Assembly: GCA_947629985.1 (NCBI GenBank)
Contig: CANRFV010000010.1
Location: 1 to 47,239 of the forward strand
Direction: 5' to 3'
Length of the DNA: 47,239 nucleotides
Source: an uncultured Clostridia bacterium
GTDB lineage: Bacteria > Bacillota > Clostridia > Christensenellales > CAG-314
The notes below the pieces were generated by a model that saw only the letters and a list, made by a program, of their open reading frames with translations, was not told the DNA's origin and made no database searches. Positions 9,707-34,682 of this stretch are shown here, one piece after another. The position numbers and the translations under genes were made by a program. Numbering within the stretch: position 1 is the first letter of the stretch; each line of letters begins with the position of its first letter.

Positions 9707-11665
9707 TCAACAGCGGGGCAAACGCACGGTTACGCACAGCGGAGTGTCTTGTGAGTTTGTGCCGATGTACACTTCGTATTCGCCGCCTTCCACAAGCCAA
9801 CGTCCTTCGCAAACGGAGTAGTAGGCAAAGTTTTTGAGCGGTAGCGTAACGGTAACGCGCTTGGTGCTTCCGCACGGAACGTCCACACGTTCGAAGCCCG
9901 CCAATTCCATAAAGGGACGGAACACTCTCGGGTTGACTTCGCGTACGTACAGTTGCGCTATCTCGGTGCCGTCCGCGCGCCCTGTATTGGATATGTCGAA
10001 ACTCACTTCAACGCCCTTGTCGGTAACCGCGGCTTGCGCGTCGGAGTATCGGTAACTTGTGTAACTCAACCCGTAACCAAAGGGAAACAGCGGTTTGGCA
10101 ACGGGTTCTGTCGGCAGATTTTTGTGCGCCGCCGTCGTGTGATAGCGGTAGCCCACAAGCAGTCCGTCGCTGTATACGCTTACCGTGCTGTCCATATAGC
10201 AGCGGTGCGCGGGGTAGTCGAATTCCGTCGCGGGGAACGTTTCGGTAAGTTTTCCGCTCGGGTTTACTTTTCCGCACAGCACGTCGGCAACGGCAAGGTT
10301 GCCCTGTTCGCCGGGATACCCCGCCCACACAACAGCCGCAACGTCGTTTATCCAGCCCGACATATCTATGGGCGCGCCGCAATACAGTACCACAACGGTG
10401 TTGGGATTTTTACGCGCGGTCTCCTTTATTTGGCGCACCTGCGGCGGAGTAAGTTGCATAGTGTTGCGGTCAAAGCCTTCGCAGTCGTGCATACCCATAC
10501 ACAAAACGGCGGCGTCCTTGCCGTAGGCGTCCTCTATCTGATGCAGCGGCGCTTCGGACACGCCGTATTCCCACAAGTCGCGGTAGGTTATTTTGCCGTC
10601 GGGCATAGCGTTGCCAAGCGCCGTAAGCAAACCTAACGGGGTGTTTAAGGGCGGAACGGCAGACGATCCGCCGCCAGCAAAATAACTTTCGGGGTATCCG
10701 CCCACGCTTACGTTTGCATTGGGGGATAGCGGCAACACGCCGTTGTTTTTAAGCAGTACAATGCCTTGTTCTTCGATTTTACGTGCAAGGTTCATTCGCT
10801 CTTCGATCGACATCGTTACCTTGCGTTGTTTGCTTTCTGCGCGGCACTTTTCCGCAAAGTCGTCAACGCGTTGCGCGCTTTCGTTCAGGGCGTCGCGATC
10901 CAGGTCGCCGTTGTCGTACGCTTGTTCAAGGCGTTGTTCGCACTTTTCCGCGTAGGGCATTATCAGATCCAGCCCCGCGTTTACCGAAGCCGCCGCGTCC
11001 GTAACCGCGCCCCAATCGGACATTATCAGCCCGTTGCCGAAGCCCAGATCTTTGCGCAGCAACGTAAACAATTTGCGGTTTTGCGCCGCTCGCACGCCGT
11101 TTACCACGTTGTAGGAACACATCACCGCCCACGGTTGGGCTTCGAGCGCTATTTCAAATGCGCGCGTGTATATTTCGCGCAGGGTACGCTCGTCCACTTC
11201 GGCGCTAAGCCACATACGGCTGAACTCGGCGTTGTTACAGCAAAAGTGTTTGAGCGTTGCGCCGACGTGATTGTCTTGCAACCCCTTTACGTACATTTTG
11301 CCCATTCGTCCCGCAAGCAGCGGGTCTTCGGATACGTACTCGAAGTTACGTCCGCAGTGGGGGCTGCGTTTGATGTTAAGTCCGGGCGCAAGCAGTACGT
11401 CCACTCCGCGTTCGGCGGCGTCGCTTGCAAGCGCCTCGCCCAACTTGTAGGCAAGTTGTTCGTTCCAACTGTGCGACAGTATCTGCATGGATGGGTACGC
11501 CACCGACGGTTCGTCCTTAAATACCCCGTCGATCATTTTGGGCGTGCGCAGTCCTATCGGGCCGTCGGATACTTTTGCGGCATAGGCTTGCCCGTCAAAG
11601 TCCTCCGTGTGCCAGCAGTCTTTGCCCATTACGAGTTTCAGTTTTTGTTTGTCGGTATATTCCAT
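9707..11665 (-). CDS. glycoside hydrolase family 3 beta-glucosidase, cytoplasmic
   Basis: This 652-residue GH3 enzyme has no signal peptide. Residues ~1-270 form the TIM-barrel part, with KHF at 139-141 and the nucleophile Asp217 in LIMSDWGAV. The alpha/beta sandwich follows (about 300-500, containing CMGMHDCEGFDR), then a C-terminal fibronectin-like domain (about 560-645). It should release glucose from beta-linked oligosaccharides inside the cell. The ATG at 11665 is chosen for its GGGGAGG site; it lies 15 bases after the LacI stop, so the two genes form one operon. A GH3 glucosidase next to GH94 and LacI is also the arrangement of the Listeria sophoro-oligosaccharide locus, which suggests but does not prove the same substrate. 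Confidence 0.92.
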   Translation of the reverse strand: MEYTDKQKLKLVMGKDCWHTEDFDGQAYAAKVSDGPIGLRTPKMIDGVFKDEPSVAYPSMQILSHSWNEQLAYKLGEALASDAAERGVDVLLAPGLNIKRSPHCGRNFEYVSEDPLLAGRMGKMYVKGLQDNHVGATLKHFCCNNAEFSRMWLSAEVDERTLREIYTRAFEIALEAQPWAVMCSYNVVNGVRAAQNRKLFTLLRKDLGFGNGLIMSDWGAVTDAAASVNAGLDLIMPYAEKCEQRLEQAYDNGDLDRDALNESAQRVDDFAEKCRAESKQRKVTMSIEERMNLARKIEEQGIVLLKNNGVLPLSPNANVSVGGYPESYFAGGGSSAVPPLNTPLGLLTALGNAMPDGKITYRDLWEYGVSEAPLHQIEDAYGKDAAVLCMGMHDCEGFDRNTMQLTPPQVRQIKETARKNPNTVVVLYCGAPIDMSGWINDVAAVVWAGYPGEQGNLAVADVLCGKVNPSGKLTETFPATEFDYPAHRCYMDSTVSVYSDGLLVGYRYHTTAAHKNLPTEPVAKPLFPFGYGLSYTSYRYSDAQAAVTDKGVEVSFDISNTGRADGTEIAQLYVREVNPRVFRPFMELAGFERVDVPCGSTKRVTVTLPLKNFAYYSVCEGRWLVEGGEYEVYIGTNSQDTPLCVTVRLPRC

Positions 11666-11680
11666 AGCAATCCTCCCCAA

Positions 11681-12616
11681 TCAATAATACTCTATAACGT
11701 CCACCGGAATTTTTATGTTGGATTCGGTGGCAACGTGATCGAACAGTTGCAACATCGAGTATGCCGCAATGGCTCCCCAATGTTTGCGCTCCGCCTTGGC
11801 GGTTATATAGCGAAAGTGATTCATCGGGTTAAGTCCGTCAAATCCGGCAAGCAACACCTGTTCTTGCAGATTGCGCGCCACAAGTTCCGAGTGTATACCC
11901 ATTGCTGTCTCGTCGTTGGCGCACACGATTGCGTCGGGCAAACTCGGACGTTCCAGCAAAAAGCGCGATACGTTTACGCCGCCGTCGAATGTAAAGTCGC
12001 TTTGCAACACAATTGTGTTTTTGCGTTGAAGGTTGTTGTCTTCAAGCGCCTTGCAAAAGCCGTCGTACCGCTCTTTGCTTTCAAAGGACGTTTTCGGCCC
12101 GCCCACAAAGGCAAAAGTGCGCGCGCCGTGCCGCACCAAAGCGTCGGTAACCGAATAGCACCCGTTAAAGTTGTCCAATTTAACGTTTACCACTCCGTCA
12201 AATGTCATTTCGCGGTCCATTACCACAACGGGGATACGTCTGGACGCAATTTCTTCGACGGCAGCGGTGCTCACACCGGAATTCAACAAAAACAACCCGT
12301 CCATCCACTTGACGTTGGTAATGTTTGTACCCACGTAAATCAGCAGTTCGCAGTTGCTTACGTTAAGCACGCTTTTTATTGCGCTTATTATTTCGGGATA
12401 GATCAGTCCGCTGATGGAGTTGATGCACAGCACCGCTTGGCGCAGATAACTGTGGTTATGTTTGCGCCCCGATTTGCCGGAGTAGCCGAGTTCCTGCGCC
12501 GCTTGAAGCACGTGGTAACGTGTTTCTTCGGGGATACGCGGATCGTTGTTTAACGCATAACTTACCGTGGATACCGCCACATTGGCTTTGGCGGCAATAT
12601 CTTTTAGTGTTACCAT
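11681..12616 (-). CDS. LacI family transcriptional regulator
   Basis: This 311-residue regulator carries an N-terminal LacI helix-turn-helix (VTLKDIAAKANVAVSTVSYAL, recognition helix near residues 16-24) and hinge, followed by a periplasmic-binding-protein-like effector domain with typical landmarks (VVMDRE, FVGG, DAIVCANDETAMGI, LAGFDG). It most likely senses an imported sugar and represses both its own GH3-containing operon and the divergent GH94 operon across the shared 232-bp intergenic region. The start has an AGGGGG ribosome site and its own consensus promoter. The effector is not predictable from the sequence alone. Confidence 0.93.
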   Translation of the reverse strand: MVTLKDIAAKANVAVSTVSYALNNDPRIPEETRYHVLQAAQELGYSGKSGRKHNHSYLRQAVLCINSISGLIYPEIISAIKSVLNVSNCELLIYVGTNITNVKWMDGLFLLNSGVSTAAVEEIASRRIPVVVMDREMTFDGVVNVKLDNFNGCYSVTDALVRHGARTFAFVGGPKTSFESKERYDGFCKALEDNNLQRKNTIVLQSDFTFDGGVNVSRFLLERPSLPDAIVCANDETAMGIHSELVARNLQEQVLLAGFDGLNPMNHFRYITAKAERKHWGAIAAYSMLQLFDHVATESNIKIPVDVIEYY

Positions 12617-12640
12617 CTGTTTTCCCCCTGTTTTTTATCA

Positions 12641-12669
12641 ATTTTACCACTTATCTGTAACATTGTCAA
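12641..12669 (-). promoter_or_regulatory. promoter of the lacI-GH3 operon
   Basis: Read on the minus strand, TTGACA (12664-12669) and TAAAAT (12641-12646) are separated by exactly 17 bases. The start codon at 12616 follows about 25 bases later. Confidence 0.8.
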
Positions 12670-12730
12670 TAATTCAATTAAACATCGAAAATTTCAATAA
12701 AATTTCAACATATTAAACGGCACAACCGTC

Positions 12731-12758
12731 TTGACAACCGTTTTTCAGGTGTTACACT
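12731..12758 (+). promoter_or_regulatory. promoter of the GH94-ABC operon with candidate operators
   Basis: TTGACA (12731-12736) and TACACT (12753-12758) are 16 bases apart. Possible regulator sites nearby: ACAACCGT occurs twice in direct orientation around the -35 box; TCGAA (12781-12785) and TTCGA (12792-12796) form an inverted repeat just after the expected start; GTGA-ATAC-TCAC lies at 12819-12830. AT-rich repeats of ATTTCAA lie at 12690-12709. None can be assigned to the LacI protein with certainty. Confidence 0.65.
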
Positions 12759-12848
12759 AAAATTGATAGATTATAAAAAGTCGAATTATGTTTCGATTAA
12801 GTGAATTTATTGAAATTTGTGAATACTCACAAGTGGGGAGAATAGTTA

Positions 12849-15203
12849 ATGTTAGATAACAAGTATGGCAAGTTCAGTCCCGACGGCAAGGAATTTGTCA
12901 TTATCAATCCGTATACGCCCCGACCCTGGATCAACGTCATCAGCAACGGAGATTACTCTTTTATGGTGTCGCAGACGGGCGGCGGATTTTCATTCAGGGG
13001 CAACGCCGAGCAAAACCGCATTACGCGGCTGTATCAGGATATAGTAAAAGACAATTGGGGAAAATATTTTTACGTAAGAGATAAACAAAACGGCGCATAT
13101 TGGAGCGCTGCGCTCAATCCAGTGCAGGGCGGCTACGACAGTTACACCGTGCGGCACGGCTTGGGCTACAGTGTGTTTACCCGCGTGCAAAACGGCGTCG
13201 AAACCGAACTGACGGTGTTTGTTCGCAAGGACAAACCGATGGAATACGCCCTGTTGCAGGTCAAAAACCTTACCGACAGCCCCCGCGCGTTGGATATCAC
13301 CGCGTATTTCGAATGGGCGCTGGGCATTGCATACGACACTCATCGAGAGTTTCAACGTCTTTTTTACGACGTCAATTACGACGACGAACTCAACGCAATA
13401 GTTGCAAACAAGTGCTTGTGGGGCTTTGCGGACAGCAAGGGCCGCTACAACAACGACGATTACCCCTATACCGCGTTTTTTGCCTGCTCGGATCGGGTCG
13501 GCAGTTACGACTGCGACAAGGAAAGTTTTGTGGGAATGTATCGCAACGAACAATCTCCTTTGGCAATGGATCAGGAGCACCTTGCAGGCAATCACGGCAG
13601 GTTTTGCGATCCCGTTGCCGCGCTGTGCGTAGACGTAAATCTCGAACCAAACGGTACCAAGACGGTTTGTTTCGGTTTGGGACTTGCCGCCAAGGCAGGC
13701 GAGGACTACCGCGCGTTGGCTAAGGACGTGCAAGTCGAGTTTGCCCTTAACCAACTTGAAATCGTCAAAAAATATTGGACCGATCTGTGCGAGATAGAAC
13801 AAGCGCACACGCCCGATCCTGCGTTCGACGTGATGACCAACTATTGGTGCAAGTATCAGGCGCTGTCCTGCCGTATGTGGGCAAAAGCGGCATATTACCA
13901 AATAAGCGGCGGTATCGGCTTCCGCGATCAGTTGCAGGACAGTCTCATCGGGTTGGAAAGCGACCCGTCCATTACGGAAAATCAAATTTTGTTGCACGCT
14001 ACCAAGCAGTTTAAGCAAGGCGACGTGCTGCATTGGTGGCTTACCGTCAACGGCGCAGGACCCCGCACAAACTGTTCGGACGACTTTTTGTGGTTGCCCT
14101 TTGCCGCGCTCGCCTATATGGAAGAAGTGGGCACGCGCGACATTCTCGACAAACAAGCGGGCTGGCTGGACGGCGGCTCTGCCACTATATACGACCACTG
14201 CAAAGCGGCGATAAATCACAGTTTCGATATGTTCGGCAAGCGCGGCGTGCCGCTGATGGGCGCGCACGATTGGAACGACGGACTTTCCGCCGTGGGACAC
14301 GGCATGAAAGGCGAAAGTTTTTGGGTGGCGGAATTTTTGTACTATATAATAAAACGCTTCGAACCTGTTGCGCGTCAACGCGGCGACGGCGAGTTTGCCG
14401 ACAAGTTGAGCCAACGCGCCGAGTCTCTCAAACAAGCGTTCAACACTTACGGTTGGGACGGCGAGTGGTTTTTGCAAGCCACAAACGATCTCGGCGACAA
14501 GTTGGGCAGCCGCAAAAACAAAGAAGGCAAATTGTTTCTCAATCCGCAGGTGTGGGCTGTAATTTCGGATATCACCGACGACAAGCGCAAACGTTCGGCA
14601 ATGAAAGCGGTGCAAGATCACCTGCTTAAAGAACACGGCTCCTTGCTGCTTACGCCCGAATATTGCTCGCCCAACAGCGAAGTGGGGTATATCACGCGGT
14701 ATGCGCCCGGCTTGCGCGAAAACGGCGGCGTATACACCCACGCTGCCACCTGGACGGTATGGGCTGCGGCATTGATGCACGACCCCGAAATGGCATACAA
14801 GGCGTACAGCGCAATTTGTCCGCCCAACAGGGGCAAGGATATCGACGGTTTCAAGTCGGAACCCTACGTATTGCCCGGCAACACCGACGGACCCATCAGT
14901 CCGCACTTCGGCAAAGGCGGTTGGAGTTGGTATTCGGGTTCGGCGCAATGGCTGCACCGTGTTGCAGTAAACAGTATTTTGGGCGTGCGCGCAACCTACG
15001 ACGGCTTGGTCGTAGAGCCTTGCATACCCGCAAGTTGGAATGGTTATACCTATCGCAGACTATTCCGCAACGCTATCTATAATATAACCGTTAAGCGTAG
15101 CGGCCGCAAAAAACTTTGCGTAGACGGCAAAGATTTGGGCACAAAGTCGCTCATTCCCGTGTTTGAGAGTGGCGAGCACGCCGTAACGGTGGAAATTGAA
15201 TAA
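12849..15203 (+). CDS. GH94 beta-glucoside phosphorylase
   Basis: This 784-residue cytoplasmic enzyme of glycoside hydrolase family 94 splits a beta-linked oligosaccharide with phosphate to give alpha-glucose 1-phosphate. The N-terminal beta-sandwich (about 1-270) is followed by the (alpha/alpha)6 barrel with GIGFRDQLQD near 358, a QILLHATKQF / WWLT block, and the general-acid motif DWND at 474-477. A GESFWVAEF block follows. The length is near cellobiose phosphorylase (~810) and well short of the ~1100 residues of 1,2-beta-oligoglucan phosphorylases, yet DNWGKYFYVRD at residues 64-74 resembles the NdvB/SOGP side. The linkage is therefore open. GGGGAGA precedes the ATG; the gene heads the rightward operon. 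Confidence 0.92.
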   Translation: MLDNKYGKFSPDGKEFVIINPYTPRPWINVISNGDYSFMVSQTGGGFSFRGNAEQNRITRLYQDIVKDNWGKYFYVRDKQNGAYWSAALNPVQGGYDSYTVRHGLGYSVFTRVQNGVETELTVFVRKDKPMEYALLQVKNLTDSPRALDITAYFEWALGIAYDTHREFQRLFYDVNYDDELNAIVANKCLWGFADSKGRYNNDDYPYTAFFACSDRVGSYDCDKESFVGMYRNEQSPLAMDQEHLAGNHGRFCDPVAALCVDVNLEPNGTKTVCFGLGLAAKAGEDYRALAKDVQVEFALNQLEIVKKYWTDLCEIEQAHTPDPAFDVMTNYWCKYQALSCRMWAKAAYYQISGGIGFRDQLQDSLIGLESDPSITENQILLHATKQFKQGDVLHWWLTVNGAGPRTNCSDDFLWLPFAALAYMEEVGTRDILDKQAGWLDGGSATIYDHCKAAINHSFDMFGKRGVPLMGAHDWNDGLSAVGHGMKGESFWVAEFLYYIIKRFEPVARQRGDGEFADKLSQRAESLKQAFNTYGWDGEWFLQATNDLGDKLGSRKNKEGKLFLNPQVWAVISDITDDKRKRSAMKAVQDHLLKEHGSLLLTPEYCSPNSEVGYITRYAPGLRENGGVYTHAATWTVWAAALMHDPEMAYKAYSAICPPNRGKDIDGFKSEPYVLPGNTDGPISPHFGKGGWSWYSGSAQWLHRVAVNSILGVRATYDGLVVEPCIPASWNGYTYRRLFRNAIYNITVKRSGRKKLCVDGKDLGTKSLIPVFESGEHAVTVEIE

Positions 15204-15231
15204 CAAAATTCAACAAAATAGGAGAACAGCA

Positions 15232-16614
15232 ATGAAAAAGACAGCAATTTTGTTAGCATTGGTTATCGTACTTGCGGCTACTGTGGCAATTTTTGCCGCC
15301 TGTCAGGAAAAGTACGACCTTGTTTACGCCAATTGGAACTTTGGCACCGACGCCGAGCCCACCGTCGAAAGAGAGATGGTCAAGGCGTTTGAAGAAGCCA
15401 ACGGCGTAAAAATCAAACTATTGTCTTTCCCCACGGGATATGACGACGGCATCATCGGCTCCATTGCCAGAGACGAAGCCCCCGATGTATTTATGACGAG
15501 CAACATTCCCTTTGTACTCAGCAATCAATACGGTATGGATATTACCGAAATGGTTGCAAACGACCCCGATTGGAACAGTATCCCCGAAATTTTGAAAAAG
15601 GACGTAGTATTTAAGGGTGGCACATACTTTATTCCCTTCCAGATGCACATGTTGGGATTGTTCGTCAATGTAGACCTGCTCAAAGACGAAGGCATCAAAC
15701 TTCCGCAGGACGACAACTACACCTACGAGTGGTTCAAAAACGCTGTTACTCAAATAACTCAACACGGAAACAACATCGGTCTCAACAAGGAAGAAACCGT
15801 ATTTGAGTGGTATCCCGCAGCCGCAAATAAAAATCTCGGCTACTTTACCTGGGACGGCGAAAAGTACAACCTTAATACCGACGAATTTAAGCAAGGTATG
15901 GCGGAGACCAAGTATTTCCGCGACAATCACCTGACTTTCGGCGGAATGACGGACGCTATGAAGGCCAAGTTCGCAGGTTACAAAGACGACGTCGACGCCT
16001 GGAACCAAGGCAAGATCGCTTTCCGATGGGAGCAAACCTCCGCAGTTCCCGATATGGTCAAGAAATCCGGCTTCCAAGATATTCGTTTTATCGGTATACC
16101 CGGTTTGTCCGGCGAAGATGCGCGTAATCTCAACTTCCCCACGCTGGTACCCGACTATGTGTCCATTTACAAGGGCACGTCCAATCCCGAACTTGCCTAC
16201 AAGTTTGCCAAGTGGATGAGTTTCGATCCCGAAGGCATAGCCAAGCGTATCGAACTTGCCAAAACAGGCGACACGGCAAACACCCTGCCCATGACCACGG
16301 ACGCAAGCATTGTGGAAAAGTTTTGCGACGTTTACCCCATCGACGGTATAGAAACGATGTACGCCAGACTTGCTTCCGCCGTGTTCGAACCCGTCAAGAC
16401 GGTTCCCGGTTATACGGATTCGCGCTGGCTTGCGCAAACTGGACTTCAAAACGTAACCGTGGCAGGCGAATTGATTACGAGAGCCAAGATGGAAGACTAT
16501 CTCAACGCCTGCTGGAACGGCGACCAGTCCTATCCCGCCCACGCGGAAGACTGCGACAGAGTTGCCAACCAGCAAATGCAAAATACTCTCAACGGATACA
16601 AAGACAAATATTAA
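15232..16614 (+). CDS. ABC transporter sugar-binding lipoprotein (family 1)
   Basis: This 460-residue extracellular solute-binding protein has a lipoprotein signal whose lipobox FAAC places the lipidated Cys at residue 24. The mature part has the family 1 (MalE/UgpB-like) fold: early ANWNFGTDAEPTVEREM, a DVFMTSN strand near residue 87, and a long C-terminal helical part. It should deliver oligosaccharides to one of the two permease pairs downstream. The ATG at 15232 has GGAGA seven bases upstream; an in-frame ATG 12 codons earlier lacks a site. It lies 28 bases after GH94. A strong stem-loop follows at 16624-16655. Confidence 0.93.
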   Translation: MKKTAILLALVIVLAATVAIFAACQEKYDLVYANWNFGTDAEPTVEREMVKAFEEANGVKIKLLSFPTGYDDGIIGSIARDEAPDVFMTSNIPFVLSNQYGMDITEMVANDPDWNSIPEILKKDVVFKGGTYFIPFQMHMLGLFVNVDLLKDEGIKLPQDDNYTYEWFKNAVTQITQHGNNIGLNKEETVFEWYPAAANKNLGYFTWDGEKYNLNTDEFKQGMAETKYFRDNHLTFGGMTDAMKAKFAGYKDDVDAWNQGKIAFRWEQTSAVPDMVKKSGFQDIRFIGIPGLSGEDARNLNFPTLVPDYVSIYKGTSNPELAYKFAKWMSFDPEGIAKRIELAKTGDTANTLPMTTDASIVEKFCDVYPIDGIETMYARLASAVFEPVKTVPGYTDSRWLAQTGLQNVTVAGELITRAKMEDYLNACWNGDQSYPAHAEDCDRVANQQMQNTLNGYKDKY

Positions 16615-16623
16615 AATAAACAA

Positions 16624-16655
16624 ACCGATAGGGTCGCGCTCGCGGTCCTATCGGT
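16624..16655 (+). promoter_or_regulatory. intercistronic stem-loop after the first binding protein
   Basis: A perfect 9-bp stem ACCGATAGG/CCTATCGGT encloses a GC-rich loop that can itself pair. No T run follows, so it is unlikely to be a full terminator. Its position right after a binding-protein gene fits an RNA-stabilising or processing element that raises expression of that cistron, as known for several sugar ABC operons. Confidence 0.6.
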
Positions 16656-16708
16656 ATGTGTAACTAATCCTGCTTTTTGACTCAGAAAAATAAAAAAAGG
16701 AACAGACT

Positions 16709-25802: not shown

Positions 25803-26690
25803 ATGAAAAAGAACAAAAAACCCAAAATTCAATATTCTCGTTCGGAAGTGTTGTCGGGATATGCGTTTTGCGCCGTGTGGCTGGTAGGCTTTATGGTATT
25901 TACGCTGTATCCGATTATTCAAACTCTCATTTTCAGTTTTAGCAACGTTAGCGTGCAAACGGGTCATATCGAAACGGAAAGCGTGGGTTTTAGCAACTAC
26001 GTGTACGCTCTTTCGCAGGACGCAACCTTCCAGCAGGGCTTAAAGGACTACGCCATCAAATTGGTGCTGTATGTCCCCGTCATCACGGTTGTATCGCTTA
26101 TATTGGCAATGTTGCTCAACAGCAAACTCAAGGGCACGGGATTTTTCCGCACGGTATTCTTTTTGCCGGTTATCATCACCAGCGGACCGGTTATGAGCAT
26201 ATTCATCGAAGAAGGCGTTGCGTCCTTCCCCGGCGTGGACAAACTAATCGACTTCGAGTCGTTGGCAGCCACCGTACCCGCATTTTTGGTAGACGCGTTG
26301 CAGTTTCTTACCAGCGAATTCATAATGATTTTGTGGTTCAGCGGCATTCAGATATTGGTGTTTATGACAGGCTTGCAAAAGATGGACAAAAATATGTACG
26401 AGGCGGCGCAGATCGACGGCGCGTCCAAGTGGGAGATGTTCTGGAAGTTGACCCTTCCCGCGCTAAACCCGACAATAGTGCTTAACGTGGTGTTCACGGT
26501 GGTAATGCAGTCGGTGTTCTCACTCAACCCCGTCATCACGCAGATAACCGACCTTATGAACAAAACGGGTACAGGCGCAGGCTACGGATATTCGTCCGCA
26601 TTGGCATGGATCTACTTCATAGTAATGGCGGCGCTGTTGGGGCTTTCCGTACTCGTGTTCAAAAAGCATGAAAGGAGGGTAAAGAGATGA
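25803..26690 (+). CDS. sugar ABC transporter permease, MalF type (pair 2)
   Basis: This 295-residue permease is short and basic at its N terminus (MKKNKKPKIQYSRSEV). It has six helices and the EAA loop YEAAQIDGASKWEMFWKLTL near residues 200-219. An extra segment at ~135-175 (EEGVASFPGVDKLIDFES and onward) enlarges the loop before helix 4. It overlaps the next gene by four bases (ATGA), so the two halves of this pair are coupled. The ribosome site is weak (TTAGGAT). It is clearly distinct from the first MalF-type protein and so belongs to a second importer. Confidence 0.92.
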   Translation: MKKNKKPKIQYSRSEVLSGYAFCAVWLVGFMVFTLYPIIQTLIFSFSNVSVQTGHIETESVGFSNYVYALSQDATFQQGLKDYAIKLVLYVPVITVVSLILAMLLNSKLKGTGFFRTVFFLPVIITSGPVMSIFIEEGVASFPGVDKLIDFESLAATVPAFLVDALQFLTSEFIMILWFSGIQILVFMTGLQKMDKNMYEAAQIDGASKWEMFWKLTLPALNPTIVLNVVFTVVMQSVFSLNPVITQITDLMNKTGTGAGYGYSSALAWIYFIVMAALLGLSVLVFKKHERRVKR

Positions 26691-28216
26691 GTAAACGCAA
26701 AAATACCCATTCCGACCCCACAGACGAAATCAACGCCGTAACTTCGGCGCAATCCGCGGAACAACCCGCCGACGCAGTAGTCGAAACGACGGCGACCGAA
26801 CAGCCGCAGCAAACGGCAGACGCGCCCGCCGAAAGCACCGACGTCGAAGAAAAGGAAAGTTTCGGCACTCGCTTCAAAAATTTCTTTGCCGCGTTGGGGC
26901 GCAAGATCCGCAACTACTTTGTCAATCTCGGCAGACGAATAAAAAACTTTTGGGTCAACGCTTGGCGCAAGACGGTAAGGTTTTTCAAAAACATCGGAAT
27001 TTTCTTCCGTATGATATGGTCGTTGCTTGTCGAAGTCAAACTCAAACTTGACAACAAGCGTGCCGCCCGCCGTGCAAAGCGTGCCGCGTCGCAAGGCGCA
27101 GACGCCCAAGTTCAGGCGGAAACCGAACAGTCGCCGTCCGACGGAACGGACGCAACTTCGCAAACAGTTACCGCGGTAGCGGACGAACTTCCCGAAAGCG
27201 AAGCCGACCAAGCCGTCTTCAAGGATTCCGAAGTCGACCAAGCCCCCGAAATCGACGAAGTCGTCGCTATGCGCAGTCGCTTTGCGTACTTTTTCCGCAA
27301 GCGCACCAAGGACGAGTGGAAGTCGGTATTGCTCGGCAACAACGAAAAGAAGGGCGTTTTGCAACTGATCGTCTGTTACGCGTTGCTTATTTTGTTCGGC
27401 TTTGTGTACATTTACCCAATGCTGTATATGCTCGCCTACTCGTTGATGGGCGAAAGCGACGTAGTCAACCCCTTGGTTACCTATTGGCCCACCGAGTGGC
27501 AATGGTCCAACTACAGTCAGGCGTCGCAGACGTTGCATTTCTTCCGCGCGTTGCTCGAAACGGCATACATTTCGGTATTGCCCGCCATCTTCCAAACGGT
27601 GGCATGCTGTCTTACGGCATACGGTTTGGCTCGTTTCCGCTTCCCGGGCAAAAAGTTGATTTTCGGTCTGATAATCCTTACCTTTATCATTCCGCCGCAA
27701 CTTACAATGATGCCCCAATTGATAATATTTACCAATCTCAAATTTGCGGGCAACGTACTCAGTTTTATGGTACCTGCCGCAGTGGGACAGGGTATCAAAT
27801 CCGCCGTGTTCATTCTTATCTTCTACCAATTCTTCAAGGGTATACCCGACAGCGTGGTGGAAGCGGCAAAGATCGACGGCGCAAACTCATTCAAGATATT
27901 TACCAACATCGGTATACCCGCCGCCGTTCCGGCAATATTGCTCAGTTTTTTGCTGTCGGTGGTGTGGTACTACAACGAGACGGTGCTTACCAACGTTTAC
28001 CTTGGCACCAGCGTAACTACGTTACCCACAGCCTTGGCTAACTTCAAGCAGAGTTTTTCGCAGATGTTCCCCGACGCCACAACGGGCAAATCCGTCAACG
28101 AAGCGGTGTATATGGCGGGGACTCTCTTGAACGTGTTGCCGCTGATCATAATGTACTTCTTTACGCAAAGGTACTTTGTGGACGGCATTGACAAAGCCGG
28201 TATCACCGGAGAATAA
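26687..28216 (+). CDS. MalG-type permease with a long N-terminal extension (pair 2)
   Basis: This 509-residue protein is an ordinary MalG-type permease from about residue 223 (first helix LQLIVCYALLILFGFVYIYP, EAA loop VEAAKIDGANSFKIFTNIGI) preceded by ~220 extra residues. The extension has three parts: acidic and rich in Ala, Glu, Gln, Thr (1-57); strongly basic and amphipathic with repeated FxxxLGRxIxN-like turns (58-135); and acidic again (136-193). Normal members have ~280 residues. GGAGG precedes the ATG, and codons 1-220 stay open in frame with no other good start, so the extension is probably real. It should lie on the cytoplasmic side and may bind the membrane surface or the ATPase. 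Confidence 0.88.
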   Translation: MSKRKNTHSDPTDEINAVTSAQSAEQPADAVVETTATEQPQQTADAPAESTDVEEKESFGTRFKNFFAALGRKIRNYFVNLGRRIKNFWVNAWRKTVRFFKNIGIFFRMIWSLLVEVKLKLDNKRAARRAKRAASQGADAQVQAETEQSPSDGTDATSQTVTAVADELPESEADQAVFKDSEVDQAPEIDEVVAMRSRFAYFFRKRTKDEWKSVLLGNNEKKGVLQLIVCYALLILFGFVYIYPMLYMLAYSLMGESDVVNPLVTYWPTEWQWSNYSQASQTLHFFRALLETAYISVLPAIFQTVACCLTAYGLARFRFPGKKLIFGLIILTFIIPPQLTMMPQLIIFTNLKFAGNVLSFMVPAAVGQGIKSAVFILIFYQFFKGIPDSVVEAAKIDGANSFKIFTNIGIPAAVPAILLSFLLSVVWYYNETVLTNVYLGTSVTTLPTALANFKQSFSQMFPDATTGKSVNEAVYMAGTLLNVLPLIIMYFFTQRYFVDGIDKAGITGE

Positions 28217-28241: not shown

Positions 28242-29594
28242 ATGAAGAAATTTTTGCTTACAACCTGTTCGGTAGTGCTTGTACTGTGCTTAACATTGTG
28301 CTTTGTCGCTTGCGGCGAGCCCGGCAGAGAACAACTGCTCAACAAGTACGCCGACGCGATAGAACAGGAAATGCGCGGCAGTTTCGACTTCTTTTGGAAC
28401 GAAGCGCAAACCGAAGAACCCGCAGGTTACGGTCTCATTGCCGACAGAGCGGGCATAACCAAAAATTCCGCCGCGTCAATAGCGTCTGTCGGTTTCGGTC
28501 TTGCAGCCTACGTAGTGGGCGCCGAAAAGGGTTACGTAACCGCAGCCGAGGCGGAAGAGCGTTCTGTCGGCACATTGCGCACGCTGTTGCGTTTGCAGCA
28601 GGAGGGCGAAGGCACGTCCACGCGTAGCGGATTTTTCGCTCACTTTCTCAATATGCGCAGCGGTTATCCCGCGCCCGGTACGGAAATTTCTTCCATCGAT
28701 ACAGCCATTGCCCTTTGCGGCGCGCTTGCCGCAGGCGAGTATTTCGGCGGCGAAGCGGAAACGCTTGCCAAACAAATTTACTCCAACGTCAATTGGCAGG
28801 CAATGCGTATGACGCGCGGCGGCAAGCAATACATCGCAATGACATTCAGCGGCAACACGCCTACCGGTCCGTGGGATTACTACGCCGAGCAACTTATGAT
28901 ATACGTTTTGGGCGCGGGCAGCCCCAATGCGGAATATCGTTTGGACGACAGGGAGTATTACGACTTTACCCGTCAGCAAGGTCGTTACGGCAATCACAAC
29001 TTTATTTACAGTTGGTTCGGCAGCATATTTACTTACCAATTCAGCCACGCTTTCATCGATTTCCGCGGCATAGTGGACAAAAACGGCACAAATTGGTGGG
29101 ATAACTCGGTCGAAGCGTCTCTTGCCGCATACGAGTATTGTCGCGACAACTCCGCGCAGTACAAAACCTTCCGCAAGGGCGGTTGGGGGCTTACGGCATG
29201 CGACGGCGTAGACGGTTACTGCGGCTATATCGGCGCCGAACCGCGCGGCTGGTCGGCAGCCAACGCTCCCGATAACGAAAGCATACCCTACAAACTCAAC
29301 CGTGCCACAATTGCGCCGTGCGGTGCGCTGGGCAGCGTGGTGTTCACGCCGCAACAGTCCTTAAAGGCTCTTCAATACTATCAAACGGTCAAGTATCTCA
29401 ACGGCGATTACGGGCTGTACGACAGTTACAATCTGGACAAGGACTTTTACTGTATGGACTACATCGGCATAGACAAGGGCATTACTCTTGTTATGCTGTA
29501 CAACTACGAGTGCGACGGCATCTGGAATCTTCTCAACAACAACCAATACCTGCAAAACGGTCTTAACGTTTTGGGATTTAGCAAGGCACAGTAA
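28242..29594 (+). CDS. PF10091 / GH144-like glucanase, surface lipoprotein
   Basis: This 450-residue lipoprotein has a lipobox (CFVAC, Cys at ~24). The mature part belongs to the PF10091 family ('glycoamylase', COG5368), an (alpha/alpha)6 barrel. Landmarks in order are SSIDTAIALCGALAAGEYF, WDYYAEQLMIYVLG, FTYQFSHAFIDFRG, GWGLTACDGVDGY, APCGALGSVVFTP, GLYDSYN and YIGIDKGITLVML. Family GH144, built on such proteins, contains endo-beta-1,2-glucanase and sophorohydrolase. Acting outside the cell it could cut long glucans for the binding proteins. TGAGGT precedes the ATG at 28242. The chemistry is inferred from family knowledge. Confidence 0.86.
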   Translation: MKKFLLTTCSVVLVLCLTLCFVACGEPGREQLLNKYADAIEQEMRGSFDFFWNEAQTEEPAGYGLIADRAGITKNSAASIASVGFGLAAYVVGAEKGYVTAAEAEERSVGTLRTLLRLQQEGEGTSTRSGFFAHFLNMRSGYPAPGTEISSIDTAIALCGALAAGEYFGGEAETLAKQIYSNVNWQAMRMTRGGKQYIAMTFSGNTPTGPWDYYAEQLMIYVLGAGSPNAEYRLDDREYYDFTRQQGRYGNHNFIYSWFGSIFTYQFSHAFIDFRGIVDKNGTNWWDNSVEASLAAYEYCRDNSAQYKTFRKGGWGLTACDGVDGYCGYIGAEPRGWSAANAPDNESIPYKLNRATIAPCGALGSVVFTPQQSLKALQYYQTVKYLNGDYGLYDSYNLDKDFYCMDYIGIDKGITLVMLYNYECDGIWNLLNNNQYLQNGLNVLGFSKAQ

Positions 29595-29608: not shown

Positions 29609-30856
29609 ATGACATTCGAAGATATATACGCACAGCGCATTGCCGAAATGGGCGTGCGCAAGCGCAAGTATATGAAACTTTCCGCGCGGGATACTCCCGT
29701 CATCGAGGAAATGCGCGCTTGTTTCGGGTTTTTCTACGACAACTTTTACCGTCATGGCCAATTCGGGCTTATGCCGGACAGTCTGCCCGATATCAAGCAC
29801 AAAAGTTCAATCGCTTCCACGGGCTTTATGCTTGCGGCAATGGCGGTGGGGGCAGACTTCGGTTGGATAGAACCGTCCGAAGCCAAGAGCATTTGCGACG
29901 CCACGCTCAACACGCTCTCCAATATCGAGCGCGACCACGGGTTTTTCTACCACTTTTACGACCCGGTAACTGGCAAGCGGTACAACAAGTGCGAGTTGTC
30001 CACAATAGATACGGGCTTGCTGCTTTGCGGTGCGCTTACGGCGGGCAACTATTTCGGCTCCAACACCATCAAGATGGCGCGTAAACTTGCCGCCCAAGCC
30101 GATTGGGAGTATTTTTACGATCCCGACCGCAAGTTGTTTCATATGGCGCGCTACGACAACGGCATGCAAGCCTGGTGGGATTACTACGCCGAGCAACTTG
30201 TGCTATACGTGTTGGCGGCAGCCAACGACGCGCCCTTTGCTCGCCAAGCCTACGAAAGTTTCGGGCGTCTGCACGGCAAATCCGCCGACGGCACCGACTT
30301 TGTGTACGCATGGTTCGGCACGTTGTTCACCTACCAATTCAGCCACGCGTTTGTCGATTTTCAGGGCAAGCGAGACGGTTTCGGCTTCGATTGGTTTACC
30401 AATTCCGTAACGGCAACCGTCAACGACAGGTTGTTTTGCGCGTCGCAGCCTTACCTTTATCCGAATGGAATATGGGGGCTTACAAGTTGCGCTGTTCCCG
30501 GCGGCTACAAGGGGCACATCGGTTCGTCGCCCAGCGGCAACGACAACACGGAAAACCTTTCCGAAGGCACCGTGGCTCCGTGTGCGGCGCTCGGCAGTAT
30601 CGTTTTTACTCCCGACGACGTATTTACCGTCTTGGACGAATTTCGCCGCTGCAAGGATCTTACGGGTCCCTACGGTTTGTACGACAGTTTCAACCCCACG
30701 CAGGGCTGGGTGGCAAAGCGGTACATCGGCATCGACAAGGGCATTACGTTGCTTATGTGCGCCAACTATTACAAGCGCACTGTATGGAAGAGTTTCAGTT
30801 CCTTATCCGAAATACGCCGCGGTCTCAAAAATCTCGGCTTTACCGACGCTTACTGA
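29609..30856 (+). CDS. PF10091 / GH144-like protein, cytoplasmic
   Basis: This 415-residue paralogue of the preceding gene has no signal peptide. All blocks of the family are kept: STIDTGLLLCGALTAGNYF, WDYYAEQLVLYVLA, FTYQFSHAFVDFQG, GIWGLTSCAVPGGY, GTVAPCAALGSIVFTP, GLYDSFNP and YIGIDKGITLLM. The two proteins therefore form an outside/inside pair. The cytoplasmic one probably trims imported oligosaccharides for GH94 and GH3. The DGVDGY of the lipoprotein is replaced by AVPGGY, so substrate contact may differ. The start has no clear ribosome site; it lies 14 bases after the upstream stop and may rely on coupling. Confidence 0.85.
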   Translation: MTFEDIYAQRIAEMGVRKRKYMKLSARDTPVIEEMRACFGFFYDNFYRHGQFGLMPDSLPDIKHKSSIASTGFMLAAMAVGADFGWIEPSEAKSICDATLNTLSNIERDHGFFYHFYDPVTGKRYNKCELSTIDTGLLLCGALTAGNYFGSNTIKMARKLAAQADWEYFYDPDRKLFHMARYDNGMQAWWDYYAEQLVLYVLAAANDAPFARQAYESFGRLHGKSADGTDFVYAWFGTLFTYQFSHAFVDFQGKRDGFGFDWFTNSVTATVNDRLFCASQPYLYPNGIWGLTSCAVPGGYKGHIGSSPSGNDNTENLSEGTVAPCAALGSIVFTPDDVFTVLDEFRRCKDLTGPYGLYDSFNPTQGWVAKRYIGIDKGITLLMCANYYKRTVWKSFSSLSEIRRGLKNLGFTDAY

Positions 30857-30965: not shown

Positions 30966-32099
30966 ATGGCAAACATATCACTCAAAAACATTGCAAAAGT
31001 GTACCCCGGCGGAGTCCGTGCGGTTCACGACTTCAATCTCGAAATCCACGACAAGGAATTCGTGGTATTCGTCGGTCCTTCGGGTTGCGGCAAGTCCACA
31101 ACTCTGCGTATGATCGCCGGCTTGGAAGAGATCAGCGAGGGCGACCTTTACATTGACGACAGACGCGTCAACAATGTGGAGCCCAAGGATAGAGACATAG
31201 CGATGGTGTTCCAAAACTACGCTCTGTACCCCTATATGACCGTGTTCGAAAATATGTCCTTCGGCTTGCGCCTGCGCAAAGTCCCCAAAAAGGAAATCGA
31301 ACAAAAGGTAAAAGCCGCCGCCAAGATACTCGGTTTGGAAGATTATCTCGACCGCAAACCGAAAAACCTTTCAGGCGGACAGCGCCAACGTGTGGCGCTC
31401 GGTCGTGCAATAGTGCGCGATCCCAAAGTGTTCTTGTTGGACGAGCCTCTTTCCAATTTGGACGCAAAAATGCGTACCCAAATGAGGACGGAGATCATCA
31501 AGTTGCACAATCAATTGCAAGCCACCTTCATTTACGTTACCCACGACCAAACCGAAGCGATGACAATGGGTACTCGCATAGTGGTAATGAAGGACGGTCT
31601 CATTCAGCAGGTAGACACGCCCGACAATTTGTACACCTACCCCGCAAACAAGTTTGTGGCAGGCTTTATCGGCACGCCGCAAATGAACTTTTTGGACGTA
31701 ACCTTCGAAGAAAAGGAAACCGACTCCGGCAAAAAACTCTTTGCCGTGTTGGGACGTAACCGTCTCGAAATCCACCCCGAAACAGTCAAACGCATTACGG
31801 TAGACGAAGTAAACAAACGTCAGTTTGTATTGGGCGTTCGTCCCGAAGACGTGCATTTCGGCGCAGAAGCCGCCGAAAAATACGCCACGGGCGCAATCAA
31901 AGCCACCGTCAACGTTACGGAAAAACTCGGCAACGAAACGCTCATTTACTGTTCGATCGACGGCACCGACGCGGAAATCGTCGTGCGCGGCGGTTCGCGT
32001 TGCCAAGTGGATAGCGAAGACAAAATCACTGTTTACGTCGATACGCAACACATTCAGTTGTTCGATTACGACACCGAACTCACTCTGCTCAAACGCTGA
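30966..32099 (+). CDS. sugar ABC transporter ATP-binding protein (MsmX/UgpC type)
   Basis: This 377-residue ATPase has a complete nucleotide-binding domain: Walker [10 protein letters not shown] near residues 37-45, the Q loop in [14 protein letters not shown], signature [14 protein letters not shown], Walker B VFLLDEP, and the switch His in THDQTEA. The C-terminal ~140 residues form the OB-fold/TOBE regulatory part. MsmX-type ATPases energise several sugar importers, which explains a single ATPase for two permease pairs here. AAGGAG precedes the ATG at 30966. Confidence 0.95.
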
Positions 32100-32143
32100 T
32101 GTAAATTTGCGCCGCATTGGGCAAACTATATTCAGGTAACGTA

Positions 32144-32162: not shown

Positions 32163-32203
32163 CGGTTATATATAAAAAAATTCAAAACAAGGAGAAGAAA
32201 AAA

Positions 32204-34576
32204 ATGAAAGCAAGAAAAATCGTATTGGCTTTGCTGCTGGTAGTTTTGATCGTTTCTTCCGCTTTACTTGTTGTAGCGTGCAACCAAACATTACGCATCG
32301 ATCTTACAACCGCAAGCGAATGGTCAAATTTCGACACAGGCATCTACACGATCTCAAATGACAGCGCAGGCAAACTCGTAATGAGTTACGACAAGACTGA
32401 TACGTATCAGTTGGTCAAGAGAACGATGGTGGAAAAGAAAGAAGATCTCGACAAGGTACAAACTCTTGTAATCAAGATTTCTGCCGACACCGAAGCCGAA
32501 GAGCCTATTCTCACTCTCAAATTCGAGGGTGGTACGGAAACTCCGGAAATCACTTTCCTTATCTCTTCCACGGAAAAGACTTACGAATGGGATGTAAGCG
32601 ATCTCGGAGTGAGTTCGCAAGCCCGTCTGCTACTGTTTGCGGACGCAGGTTACACCGATGTCAAGGGTACCATCACCATCAGCGAGTTCTACTTTACAAG
32701 TGAACCCGTCAACGAAGAGAACAAGATCGTCGCTTATCAGGAACCCGCAGGCAATCCGCCCACAACGGTAGAATGGAGCGAAATAACGGCGGAAGACCCC
32801 GCAGTCGACGCAGGTTGGTACGATGCCGGACGCGGCGTGTACAAACCCACCAAGAACAGCGACGGAACCTTTACCGTTTCCGCACAAAAGGGCAAGCACG
32901 AACGTTATCGTTACGAAGGTCTGTGGACTTACATTTACGGCGCAAACGACGTAATGCAGGGCTTCAAATCCTTCAAACTTACCGTAAAGGGTGCCAAGGG
33001 CACAGCCTTCGGAGTAAAACCCTTTGACGCTATCGAAGAAAAAGGTATTCTCGACGAAGATGACGTAGAACAAACAATTTGGGTAGATATTACAAGTTAC
33101 TTCGGCGGCGACGCCGAACGCAACTTTGCCAAGACCACCGACGCAACCGACGCCAAGGGCGAAAACAAGATCGGTATCTTCTGGCAGACAGGCGTATTGG
33201 GCGTATCGGGCGAATTTACCATTGTCAGTGCGGAATTCTCCACCGAAGCGGCTCCCATCAAACACAATGTAAAGGAAATTACCGCCACCGATACCAAAGC
33301 CGATGCAGGTTGGTACGATCACGGCGACGGCGCTTACACAATTACCCCCAACTCCGACGGCAGTTACAAAGTGGCGTACGACAAGGGTTCTTTCGGTTGG
33401 GCTTTTTTGGAAACATATGTAAAGGGTGCCGCTCTTAAAGATATGACGTCTCTCACAGTCAAGGTTAAGGGCGAAAGCGGTCTCAGACTGTTGGTAAAAC
33501 CCTACGACAAAAAAGACTGCTGGATCGATCTTGACGGAACCGAGCAAACTCAAACATTCGACATCTCGGGTATAACGGGCGTAGACTATTCTGCAAAGGA
33601 ACTTCCCATTAACGTATTCCTTGCTCCCGATACAAATGATATCACGGGCGAATTTACAATTTACAGCGTTGAATTCGGCACCGACAAGCCGGCAGAACCC
33701 GACAATCCCGAAAGCGGTTCTTATCCCGCCGATTTGCTTGTCAATTTCAATTCCGGTTGGACAGATGCCGACGGTGGACACTGGACAATTCCCGAACAAC
33801 CTACCGATGGTTACTATGCACTTTCTCACATTGCAGGTAACGGTTGGGCCGCTGTTACTACAACCGCCAATATCGAAGGCGCTGCTATGAACTATGTTCT
33901 TTGGGAAGTAAAGGGCACAGCAGGTACAGTCGGTATTCTCAGTGTTGAATTTGCCGATGGCGTCAAAGCCGAAGCGCATTTCGAAGGCAACCCCGGAGAT
34001 TTCGGTAAATTTACAGGTGAGTGGCAAACGGTAGCCGTTGCTCTTGACAAACCGAGAACGGGCAATGTAACCGTACGTATTTTCGGCGGTTTCAATGATG
34101 GCGATCCCGCCGGTGAAATTCAAGTCAGAAAGGCTCAATTTATGTATGTTGCCGACAAGGTAAGCGCCGACGATCTTGACGTTAACGGCTGCTGGCTCAA
34201 CGCAGTAAAGGACAGCACGCGTAACGACATCAAATACGCCGATGGCAAAACTACCGTTTCCTATTCGGCTCCCGGTTGGGATTCGATTTTGGCATGGGTA
34301 GACCTTGGCGAAGGCGGTTACAGCAAACTTACGATCACATTCAAGGGTCTTGCAGGCCACACCGGAATCTTCAAGTTCGGCAAAGAAATTCATTTTGAAG
34401 GTAACGGCGTCGAAGGCGATAACGGCACGTTTACAGGCGAAGAGCAAACCATCGAATTTGACGTATCGGGATTGAGCGGAGTTGTTGAATTCCGTATCTT
34501 CCTTGATATGAATGCGAACGAAGCCAACGCTCAGGGCGGTTCTGTGGAAATCACAAAGGCTGTTTTCTCCAAATAA
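32204..34576 (+). CDS. surface lipoprotein of five CBM-like beta-sandwich modules
   Basis: This 790-residue lipoprotein has its lipidated Cys at residue 26 (LVVAC). The mature protein is a chain of five related beta-rich modules at about 30-165, 190-347, 355-492, 508-650 and 655-790. Modules 2 and 3 are closest: each opens with AGWYD, then GxGxYxxxxNSDGxxxV, and closes with GEFTIxSxEF. Modules 4 and 5 open with W-containing variants (NSGWTDADGG, NGCWLNA) and end in xxxxxKAxF. The jelly-roll-like pattern with conserved Trp/Tyr suggests glycan binding at the cell surface. I do not recognise a named CBM family. The ATG at 32204 follows AAGGAG. It closes the operon. Confidence 0.82.
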   Translation: MKARKIVLALLLVVLIVSSALLVVACNQTLRIDLTTASEWSNFDTGIYTISNDSAGKLVMSYDKTDTYQLVKRTMVEKKEDLDKVQTLVIKISADTEAEEPILTLKFEGGTETPEITFLISSTEKTYEWDVSDLGVSSQARLLLFADAGYTDVKGTITISEFYFTSEPVNEENKIVAYQEPAGNPPTTVEWSEITAEDPAVDAGWYDAGRGVYKPTKNSDGTFTVSAQKGKHERYRYEGLWTYIYGANDVMQGFKSFKLTVKGAKGTAFGVKPFDAIEEKGILDEDDVEQTIWVDITSYFGGDAERNFAKTTDATDAKGENKIGIFWQTGVLGVSGEFTIVSAEFSTEAAPIKHNVKEITATDTKADAGWYDHGDGAYTITPNSDGSYKVAYDKGSFGWAFLETYVKGAALKDMTSLTVKVKGESGLRLLVKPYDKKDCWIDLDGTEQTQTFDISGITGVDYSAKELPINVFLAPDTNDITGEFTIYSVEFGTDKPAEPDNPESGSYPADLLVNFNSGWTDADGGHWTIPEQPTDGYYALSHIAGNGWAAVTTTANIEGAAMNYVLWEVKGTAGTVGILSVEFADGVKAEAHFEGNPGDFGKFTGEWQTVAVALDKPRTGNVTVRIFGGFNDGDPAGEIQVRKAQFMYVADKVSADDLDVNGCWLNAVKDSTRNDIKYADGKTTVSYSAPGWDSILAWVDLGEGGYSKLTITFKGLAGHTGIFKFGKEIHFEGNGVEGDNGTFTGEEQTIEFDVSGLSGVVEFRIFLDMNANEANAQGGSVEITKAVFSK

Positions 34577-34646
34577 TTCGTAGTACAAGGCATAGCCTTT
34601 GAACAAAACTTAACATACCTTTGCTTCTCAATATGCAAGGTACAGT

Positions 34647-34682
34647 AGGACAGGACGGTTTTGCCGCCCTGTCCTTTTTTTT
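34647..34682 (+). terminator. terminator of the glucan operon
   Basis: A 12-bp stem AGGACAGGACGG / CCGCCCTGTCCT (one A-C mismatch) is followed by eight T. It lies 70 bases past the last lipoprotein gene and closes the ~22-kb rightward transcription unit. Confidence 0.93.

Follow-up and report, generated by a model that had tools for sequence, protein, structure and literature searches.

The window analysed here is a stretch of 47,239 nucleotides from an uncultured Clostridia bacterium (contig CANRFV010000010.1 of assembly GCA_947629985.1). The host assembly has 2,368,519 bases in 157 contigs and is 93% complete, and the window is part of one contig. Between positions 9707 and 34682 lies a locus of 15 genes that probably serves the use of β-1,2-glucan, a sugar polymer made by bacteria. 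An original prediction, made from the DNA letters and a list of open reading frames, had named these genes with their strands and domains, and all were confirmed at their places by the open reading frame lists and Pfam. LacI and GH3 run leftward. The other genes run rightward in the order GH94, SBP1, SBP2, PermA1, PermA2, NHL-Yip1, DUF5696, PermB1, PermB2, SGL1, SGL2, MsmX and modular lipoprotein. The features are as follows.

9707..11680, minus strand: GH3, beta-glucosidase-like, no signal peptide or lipobox (Pfam GH3 N, C and Fn3-like domains; PDB matches)
11681..12616, minus strand: LacI-family repressor, divergent to GH94 and kept in relatives (Pfam LacI and Peripla_BP)
12617..12848, no strand: divergent control region with two promoter-like sites (promoter scan)
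12849..15203, plus strand: GH94, 784 amino acids (PDB search, tree, motifs)
15196..16614, plus strand: SBP1, ordinary binding lipoprotein (SBP_bac_8; lipobox FAAC; best PDB match 22hh, E 1.1e-59)
16709..19627, plus strand: SBP2, binding lipoprotein of 972 amino acids with a long N-terminal extension, cassette core gene 1 (binding-protein domain 561-851)
19641..20606, plus strand: permease A1 (PermA1), cassette core gene 2 (BPD_transp_1; best PDB match AlgM1; cassette-only clade)
20621..21493, plus strand: permease A2 (PermA2), cassette core gene 3 (BPD_transp_1)
21536..23581, plus strand: NHL-Yip1, with NHL beta-propeller, helical repeats and Yip1-like membrane domain, cassette core gene 4 (Pfam, AF2 model, Foldseek, co-occurrence)
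23574..25772, plus strand: DUF5696, predicted exported GH129-like protein, cassette core gene 5
25803..26690, plus strand: permease B1 (PermB1), cassette core gene 6 (BPD_transp_1; cassette-only clade)
26687..28216, plus strand: permease B2 (PermB2) with an N-terminal extension of ~200 residues, cassette core gene 7 (BPD_transp_1 at 314-500)
28242..29594, plus strand: SGL1, predicted GH144-type endo-beta-1,2-glucanase, lipoprotein (PF10091; best PDB match XcSGL 8xul; lipobox FVAC)
29609..30856, plus strand: SGL2, second GH144-type protein, no signal peptide (PF10091; best PDB match XcSGL 8xul)
30966..32099, plus strand: MsmX/MalK-type ATPase (ABC_tran, OB_MalK, TOBE_2; UgpC subfamily cut-off passed)
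32204..34576, plus strand: fast-evolving lipoprotein of related modules, no Pfam match (lipobox; self-comparison; relatives)
34648..34682, plus strand: rho-independent terminator (fold)

Short gaps had been predicted throughout. This held for most of the locus, and longer gaps precede SBP2 (94 bp), MsmX (109 bp) and the last gene (104 bp). A lipobox is predicted in SBP1, SBP2, SGL1 and the last modular lipoprotein, and a signal peptide is absent by prediction in GH94, GH3 and SGL2. The locus contains the components of a CUT1 ATP-binding cassette (ABC) importer, namely a binding lipoprotein, two BPD_transp_1 permeases and a MalK-type ATPase with OB/TOBE domains. Five proteins (the two PF10091 proteins, SBP2, DUF5696 and the last lipoprotein) had no NCBIfam match, and an Rfam scan of the window returned only a tRNA.

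The NHL-Yip1 protein was searched in 61 genomes (the own genome, 24 of the same genus, 12 of the same family and 24 of the same order). A match was obtained in 13 genomes, the thirteenth (G036) being weak. The locus is present in 8 of the 24 same-genus genomes in one gene order throughout. Five of these (G014, G008, G021, G012, G004) carry all 15 genes in order, and in three (G007, G002, G018) the locus is cut by contig ends. G032, from another genus of the same family, keeps 14 of the 15 genes at 30-76% identity; GH3 was not in the stretch read. Because 8 of 24 same-genus genomes carry the set and G032 keeps 14 of its 15 genes, the gene set is more than chance. In G047 and G048, from other families of the order, only SBP2-A1-A2-NHL-Yip1-DUF5696-B1-B2 was found, and this gave the first hint that the transport genes can stand apart from the rest.

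The two window genes are the only PF10091 genes of the host genome. The top PDB match of both proteins is the GH144 endo-β-1,2-glucanase XcSGL (8xul), with E 1.8e-46 for SGL1 and 1e-41 for SGL2. Identity to XcSGL amounts to 135/391 aligned positions (35%) for SGL1 and 140/371 (38%) for SGL2, and the two are 38% identical to each other. Below XcSGL followed CpSGL, BDI_3064 and three 'putative glucoamylase' chains, and GH189 chains match SGL2 weakly. The accessible part of PMC12102758 describes the clan residues E239, F286 and Y367, with the general acid at the E239 position and a base candidate at the CpSGL E142 position. For the six active enzymes described there β-1,2-glucan was the sole substrate, and one Group 4 clan protein was inactive. 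SGL1 keeps the general acid (E238), the base candidate (D175) and the clan Phe (F285), numbered from the upstream TTG. SGL2 keeps them as E195, D134 and F240. By nearest relatives and kept residues both proteins are of GH144 type and predicted β-1,2-glucanases. Signal prediction would place SGL1 outside and SGL2 inside the cell.

The linkage had been left unsettled in the original prediction, and it can be narrowed by the GH94. Its top PDB match is the C-terminal domain of NdvB/cyclic β-1,2-glucan synthase (CGS), with 470.8 bits for that domain; the best cellobiose phosphorylase reached 379.3 bits. None of the 19 PDB sequences with E <= 1e-10 was that of 1,2-β-oligoglucan phosphorylase (SOGP). 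The motifs GFRDQ, HDWNDG and LRENGGVYTHAA are all present. The window GH94 stands alone, and its first domain begins at residue 24. CGS chains are 2799-2818 residues long, and SOGP is a 1113-residue enzyme with an additional N-terminal domain, according to the available portion of PMC5309861. A GH94 search of 398 genomes of the phylum yielded, after the own lineage, stand-alone proteins of ~775-855 residues in nine genomes, followed by CGS-type chains. A GH94 phylogeny had been proposed as a check, and we calculated a tree of 28 rows (8 of the window lineage, 9 stand-alone, 5 CGS, 5 other GH94s and G061; the CGS and other rows were hand-picked). One 100/100 branch unites the window lineage, the nine stand-alone GH94s and the five CGS domains, and outside it stand the five other GH94s and the stand-alone G061. 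We rejected a cellobiose-type GH94, as bit scores and tree place the window enzyme with the CGS domains. A Listeria-type SOGP identity was likewise rejected by the length of 784 amino acids and by the position of SOGP outside the PDB matches at E <= 1e-10.

The neighbours of the nine stand-alone GH94s outside the window lineage were also inspected. A PF10091 gene adjoins the GH94 in three of the nine (G324, G210, G314), and in G080 it lies ~8 kb away on the same 40-kb contig. The GH94 contigs of G285 and G379 (3.2-3.6 kb) are too short to show neighbours. Among six neighbour-scanned loci, three (G237, G210, G080) hold a GH35 with a GLMA-like domain, G335 holds a GH1 gene, and the neighbours in G165 are dehydrogenase genes. 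IaSGT, a GH35 protein encoded in such a cluster, acts as a β-1,2-glucosyltransferase (PMC8861115, in part), and a sophorose-preferring GH1 exists (PMC12369401, in part). In G328 the whole cassette is followed by GH144 and GH35 genes (L079 3625-7261, minus strand); a single GH94 turned up in that genome, a frame of 1121 residues (SOGP length) that lies on a separate contig. By its recurrent neighbours, the stand-alone CGS-type GH94 group is tied to a predicted β-1,2-glucan route.

The best PDB matches of the GH3 are the beta-glucosidases 8j9f and 7ms2. The MsmX/MalK-type ATPase is probably common to both permease pairs. The last lipoprotein had been described as a protein of five modules. It was compared with itself as five non-overlapping segments against 200 shuffles. 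The pairs 2-3, 4-5, 1-3, 3-4, 3-5 and 1-5 beat 200/200 shuffles (z 29.5, 11.7, 9.2, 8.0, 6.2 and 5.1). A composition of related modules is thus supported; the pairs 1-2, 1-4, 2-4 and 2-5 do not beat all shuffles.

The block SBP1-SBP2-PermA1-PermA2-NHL-Yip1-DUF5696-PermB1-PermB2 is a conserved order in Bacillota and the new part of the locus. Across the 398 phylum genomes DUF5696 passed its cut-off in 39; 37 of these scored above 400 bits, and two barely pass. NHL-Yip1 (alignment A7) scored above 200 bits in 38 genomes, including all 37 with DUF5696 above 400 bits. In the 38th (G303) a 284-residue open frame matches at positions 6-196 only, and scores in the remaining genomes drop below 75 bits. 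Two sets of loci were read, one of 20 DUF5696 loci from 18 phylum genomes with automatic labels, the other of 80 loci kept from 553 confirmed relatives (561 pattern matches) in a scan of an 84,980-species collection. In the 20-locus set NHL-Yip1 immediately precedes DUF5696 in 20/20 loci, and the full core stands in strict order in 12/20; the cassette halves are swapped in L083, and SBP2 is also found after DUF5696 in L087. Most of the 80-locus set comes from Paenibacillus, Cohnella, Bacillus-like genera and Clostridia assemblies; Spirochaetaceae and Halanaerobiaceae contribute one assembly each. Here the strict order SBP2-A1-A2-NHL-Yip1-DUF5696-B1-B2 is complete in 63/80 loci. NHL-Yip1 is located immediately before DUF5696 in 74 and one gene off in 4, and PermB1 immediately follows DUF5696 in 78. 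Several of the 17 incomplete loci stop at contig edges. L107, L115, L139 and L159 show no SBP2-PermA labels in at least 9.8 kb upstream, and L115 is also without PermB1. NHL and Yip1 form a single gene in 35 loci, two genes in 39 and another arrangement in 6. The gene preceding SBP2 was an SBP_bac_8 protein, the counterpart of SBP1, in 46 of 51 loci scanned.

Downstream of the cassette 61 first-place and 39 second-place genes were scanned, and the counts given are those among the families listed, the first 25 of 60 and of 63. The commonest first neighbour was a further binding protein (15/61); some cassettes (loci L092-L163) thus hold a third binding protein after PermB2. Leading enzymes were GH26 (9/61 and 4/39), GH38 (5/61 and 3/39), GH20 (3/61) and GH43 (3/39), with single GH5, GH9, GH95, GH113 and α-fucosidase genes. 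GH38 was found in the Paenibacillus loci L114, L119, L125 and L133, and GH5 in the Caldicoprobacter locus L094. Because the cassette occurs elsewhere beside GH26, GH38, GH20 and GH5 genes, it does not appear to be tied to glucan and looks like a general glycan importer. For the same reason its substrate in the window has to be read from the companion genes. The odd parts had been taken for glucan machinery; they are present in the locus, but they belong to a conserved cassette that elsewhere stands beside many other glycoside hydrolases. No description of the cassette was found in open-licence PubMed Central, and none of DUF5696 either.

Regarding the single parts, no paper on the identity of 22hh, the best match of SBP1, was found in open-licence PubMed Central. 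In NHL-Yip1 the Pfam NHL domain scores above cut-off and Yip1 just below. Its AF2 model has a predicted local distance difference test score (pLDDT) of 81.7 and a predicted template modelling score (pTM) of 0.68, and most of the matches listed by Foldseek for the whole protein are NHL or other propeller proteins. In a tree with 11 other permeases, PermA1 (14 rows, 100/100) and PermB1 (14 rows, 100/99) form cassette-only clades, with long branches flagged. In PermB2 the extra residues are highly charged and precede the first membrane stretch (at 224), and the G032 relative aligns over 308/509 residues only.

DUF5696 (PF18952) scores 400.4 bits against a curated cut-off of 25.6; a single hydrophobic stretch lies at its N-terminus, and a lipobox is absent. 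Its model has a GH129-like fold over the full length, and a profile match to GH129 chains was obtained; identity to GH129 (ZgGH129, NagBb) is ~12%. The window protein gave no Pfam GH129 (PF11308) match, and DUF5696 was the sole family at E <= 0.01. A PF11308 search of 149 phylum genomes, including the own, was without match, and the controls were silent too. Two profile alignments to PDB GH129 chains end before the catalytic part, and the nucleophile column is not matched. Across the family, three acids of the barrel are well conserved (Asp in 49/57 and 51/57 rows, the third acidic in 56/57). At the first two positions the window protein has Gly and Ser; it keeps Asp617, just before the last barrel strand. 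We infer that DUF5696 holds glycans and does not act as an enzyme. Alternatively, it might be catalytically active, as an alpha-glycosidase in a new family related to GH129; the full-length fold, the profile match and the well-kept acids can be quoted for this. We regard this alternative as doubtful, with only the third barrel acid retained in the window protein and no clear task for an alpha-glycosidase in the use of a beta-1,2-glucan.

Taken together, we read the locus as a LacI-controlled operon for the catch, import and phosphorolysis of β-1,2-glucan in a Bacillota bacterium, with a probability of about three in four. SGL1, as an outer-face lipoprotein, would cut the glucan into oligosaccharides, which SBP1, SBP2 and perhaps the modular lipoprotein would hold. 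The transport unit of SBP1, SBP2, PermA1/A2, NHL-Yip1, DUF5696 and PermB1/B2 would import them, driven by the locally encoded MsmX-type ATPase. Inside the cell SGL2 may shorten long chains, GH94 would release glucose 1-phosphate with phosphate, and GH3 would hydrolyse leftover short β-glucosides. The actual substrate, the direction of the steps, the type of cell envelope and the partnership of the permease pairs are inferred. The original proposal of a beta-1,2-glucan acquisition machine is very probably right, and the locus would serve acquisition and breakdown in a Bacillota bacterium.

Several results weigh against this reading. The tree gives no firm branching order for the CGS, stand-alone and window groups inside the 100/100 branch, and the five other GH94s outside it served as comparison rows of undefined specificity. 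The three GH94s closest to that of the window (G165, G237, G335) have no adjoining PF10091 gene. G237 and G335 have no PF10091 over threshold genome-wide, and that of G165 lies ~0.56 Mb from its GH94. The G285 genome is without PF10091, and in G379 it is on a different contig. The clan Tyr (XcSGL Y367, CpSGL Y330) corresponds to Y348 of SGL1 in the CpSGL alignment and to Ala in the XcSGL alignment; in SGL2 it falls outside the alignments and was not placed. The GH3 reaches 156.8 bits with the sophorose-preferring Lin1840, compared with 429.8 for its best match. The best PDB match of SBP2, Lin1841 (E 2.3e-11 over 533-943), is tied with another sugar-binding protein, 3uor (2.9e-11). Finally, in the stretches read, a single importer and not the large cassette of the window lineage accompanies the related GH94-GH144 genes of G210 and G080.

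Some of these points would fit a locus for a beta-glucan of different linkage (cello-, laminari- or mixed), in which the GH94 would be a disaccharide phosphorylase and the PF10091 proteins would have changed their specificity. The GH94 has the length of a cellobiose phosphorylase, the GH3 is nearest general beta-glucosidases, the closest GH94s of other genera lack a neighbouring PF10091 gene, and a substrate is not proven by sequence alone. Such a locus is nevertheless improbable, as bit scores and tree group the GH94 with CGS domains and GH94 recurs jointly with GH144 and/or GH35. A different division of labour within β-1,2-glucan use has also been considered, with SGL1 as endo enzyme outside, SGL2 as an exo-type sophorohydrolase inside that feeds sophorose to GH3, and GH94 acting on longer chains only. 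An exo-acting GH144 is known (PMC12369401, as far as accessible). The lipoprotein nature of SGL1 and the missing signal peptide of SGL2 would suit this division. Both proteins match BDI_3064 (5z06), presumably the exo-acting enzyme, but 5z06 is the weakest of seven GH144-type matches for each, and both are nearest the endo enzyme XcSGL. The exo role for SGL2 is therefore rather unlikely; it refines and does not contradict the operon for β-1,2-glucan proposed above.

For the transport part, the two permease pairs might be independent importers for different chain lengths, with NHL-Yip1 and DUF5696 belonging to the second pair only. The loci L107, L115, L139 and L159, which hold the NHL-Yip1-DUF5696-PermB half without SBP2-PermA labels, and the swapped halves of L083 speak for this. 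Both halves keep one fixed order in 63/80 loci, and the cassette-only permease clades, whose long branches were flagged, suggest a joint function; two separate importers remain a serious possibility at somewhat less than even odds. As a tentative proposal, the whole block from SBP1 to PermB2 may be one composite glycan-import machine, a Bacillota counterpart of the Bacteroidota Sus pair. In it long chains would be caught by a giant binding lipoprotein together with a GH129-fold protein that has lost its catalytic activity, NHL-Yip1 would couple them, and two permease pairs with one ATPase type would act as a unit. Companion enzymes (GH144/GH94 here; GH26, GH38 and GH5 elsewhere) would retune it to another polysaccharide. 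For the permease pairs, the fixed order and the joint inheritance speak for one machine, the half-only loci against it.

Control signals were searched for as well. Divergent promoter-like sites with TTGACA and an extended -10 lie between LacI and GH94, but they are only suggestive, since the scan found 20 sites against a mean of 16.6 in shuffles. The intergenic regions between LacI and GH94, in the window and in seven relatives, were searched for a LacI operator in the form of a CG-centred 16-bp palindrome with no more than one left-half mismatch, and none was present. A perfect CG-centred 16-bp palindrome, ACTGATACGTATCAGT, was seen at 32396-32411 inside the last lipoprotein gene, and the window has two such sites. 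The closing strong terminator of the original prediction was recovered as a hairpin from 34648 with a T8 tail (-22.8 kcal/mol folded with flanks), although a consensus terminator scanner did not list it. Another strong hairpin (16620-16659, -24.5 kcal/mol, no T tail) lies between SBP1 and SBP2 and could lead to unequal amounts of upstream and downstream message.

Outside the locus, a gene for an MGDG-synthase-like glycosyltransferase overlaps an acyltransferase gene just upstream (7503-9501, plus strand), likely a lipid gene pair. A tandem pair of YitT-family membrane protein genes is located at 1015-2990 (plus strand). At 38277-39848 (plus strand) a single protein unites Listeria-Bacteroides repeat, BspA-type leucine-rich repeats and a flavodoxin domain, an unusual combination.

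With this locus a Bacillota lineage gains a nearly complete predicted route for β-1,2-glucan. DUF5696, far from standing alone, almost always belongs to a transport block, with nearly the same partners throughout the 100 loci and varied glycoside hydrolases alongside. If the block is indeed one importer, it makes many glycan-use loci of Paenibacillus, Cohnella and Clostridia interpretable, and the uptake of long glycan fragments by such bacteria can be put to the test.

The closest known enzyme set is the SGL cluster of Ignavibacterium album, which like the window has two GH144 genes, a CGS-type GH94 and an ABC binding protein (PMC8861115, in the part at hand). Its introduction names a putative GH3 beta-glucosidase, whereas the discussion denies a beta-glucosidase homologue in the cluster. 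Unlike the window, this cluster includes a GH35 transferase, and the transporter proposed for it is TonB-dependent; DUF5696 and NHL-Yip1 are not mentioned in that part of the description. The cluster lin1839-1841 of Listeria innocua shares GH94, GH3 and an ABC binding protein with the window (PMC12369401 and PMC8861115, both in part), and its Lin1841 is the SBP2 match described above. The parallel to Listeria that had been drawn thus holds for the function, but the parts differ: the Listeria GH94 is of the long SOGP type, and its GH3 is on a different branch from that of the window, which is nearer other β-glucosidases than Lin1840. A Listeria machine in the window was therefore rejected for the GH94 and is unsupported for the GH3. 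The window does have more parts than the Listeria version, as had been stated, since the accessible description of the latter names neither GH144 nor a second importer.

The loci of G210, G080, G314 and G324 share LacI, a same-branch GH94 and GH144 with the window. They differ in having no NHL-Yip1 or DUF5696 in the stretches read and one importer where visible (G210, G080). With CUT1 importers that use an MsmX/MalK-type ATPase and AlgM1-type permeases, the window has the permease domain, the binding lipoprotein and the ATPase type in common, but it adds a second permease pair, a giant second binding protein, NHL-Yip1 and a GH129-like protein as near-constant partners. The fold of the GH129 enzymes ZgGH129 and NagBb is common to the whole DUF5696 model, from which they are set apart by the low identity, the missing Pfam GH129 match and the lack of two of the three well-kept barrel acids in the window protein. 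In summary, the predicted enzyme set is of a known kind, with the I. album cluster as precedent. New are the Bacillota version with a signal-less GH144, the evidence that neighbouring genes give on the stand-alone GH94 group and, most importantly, the cassette.

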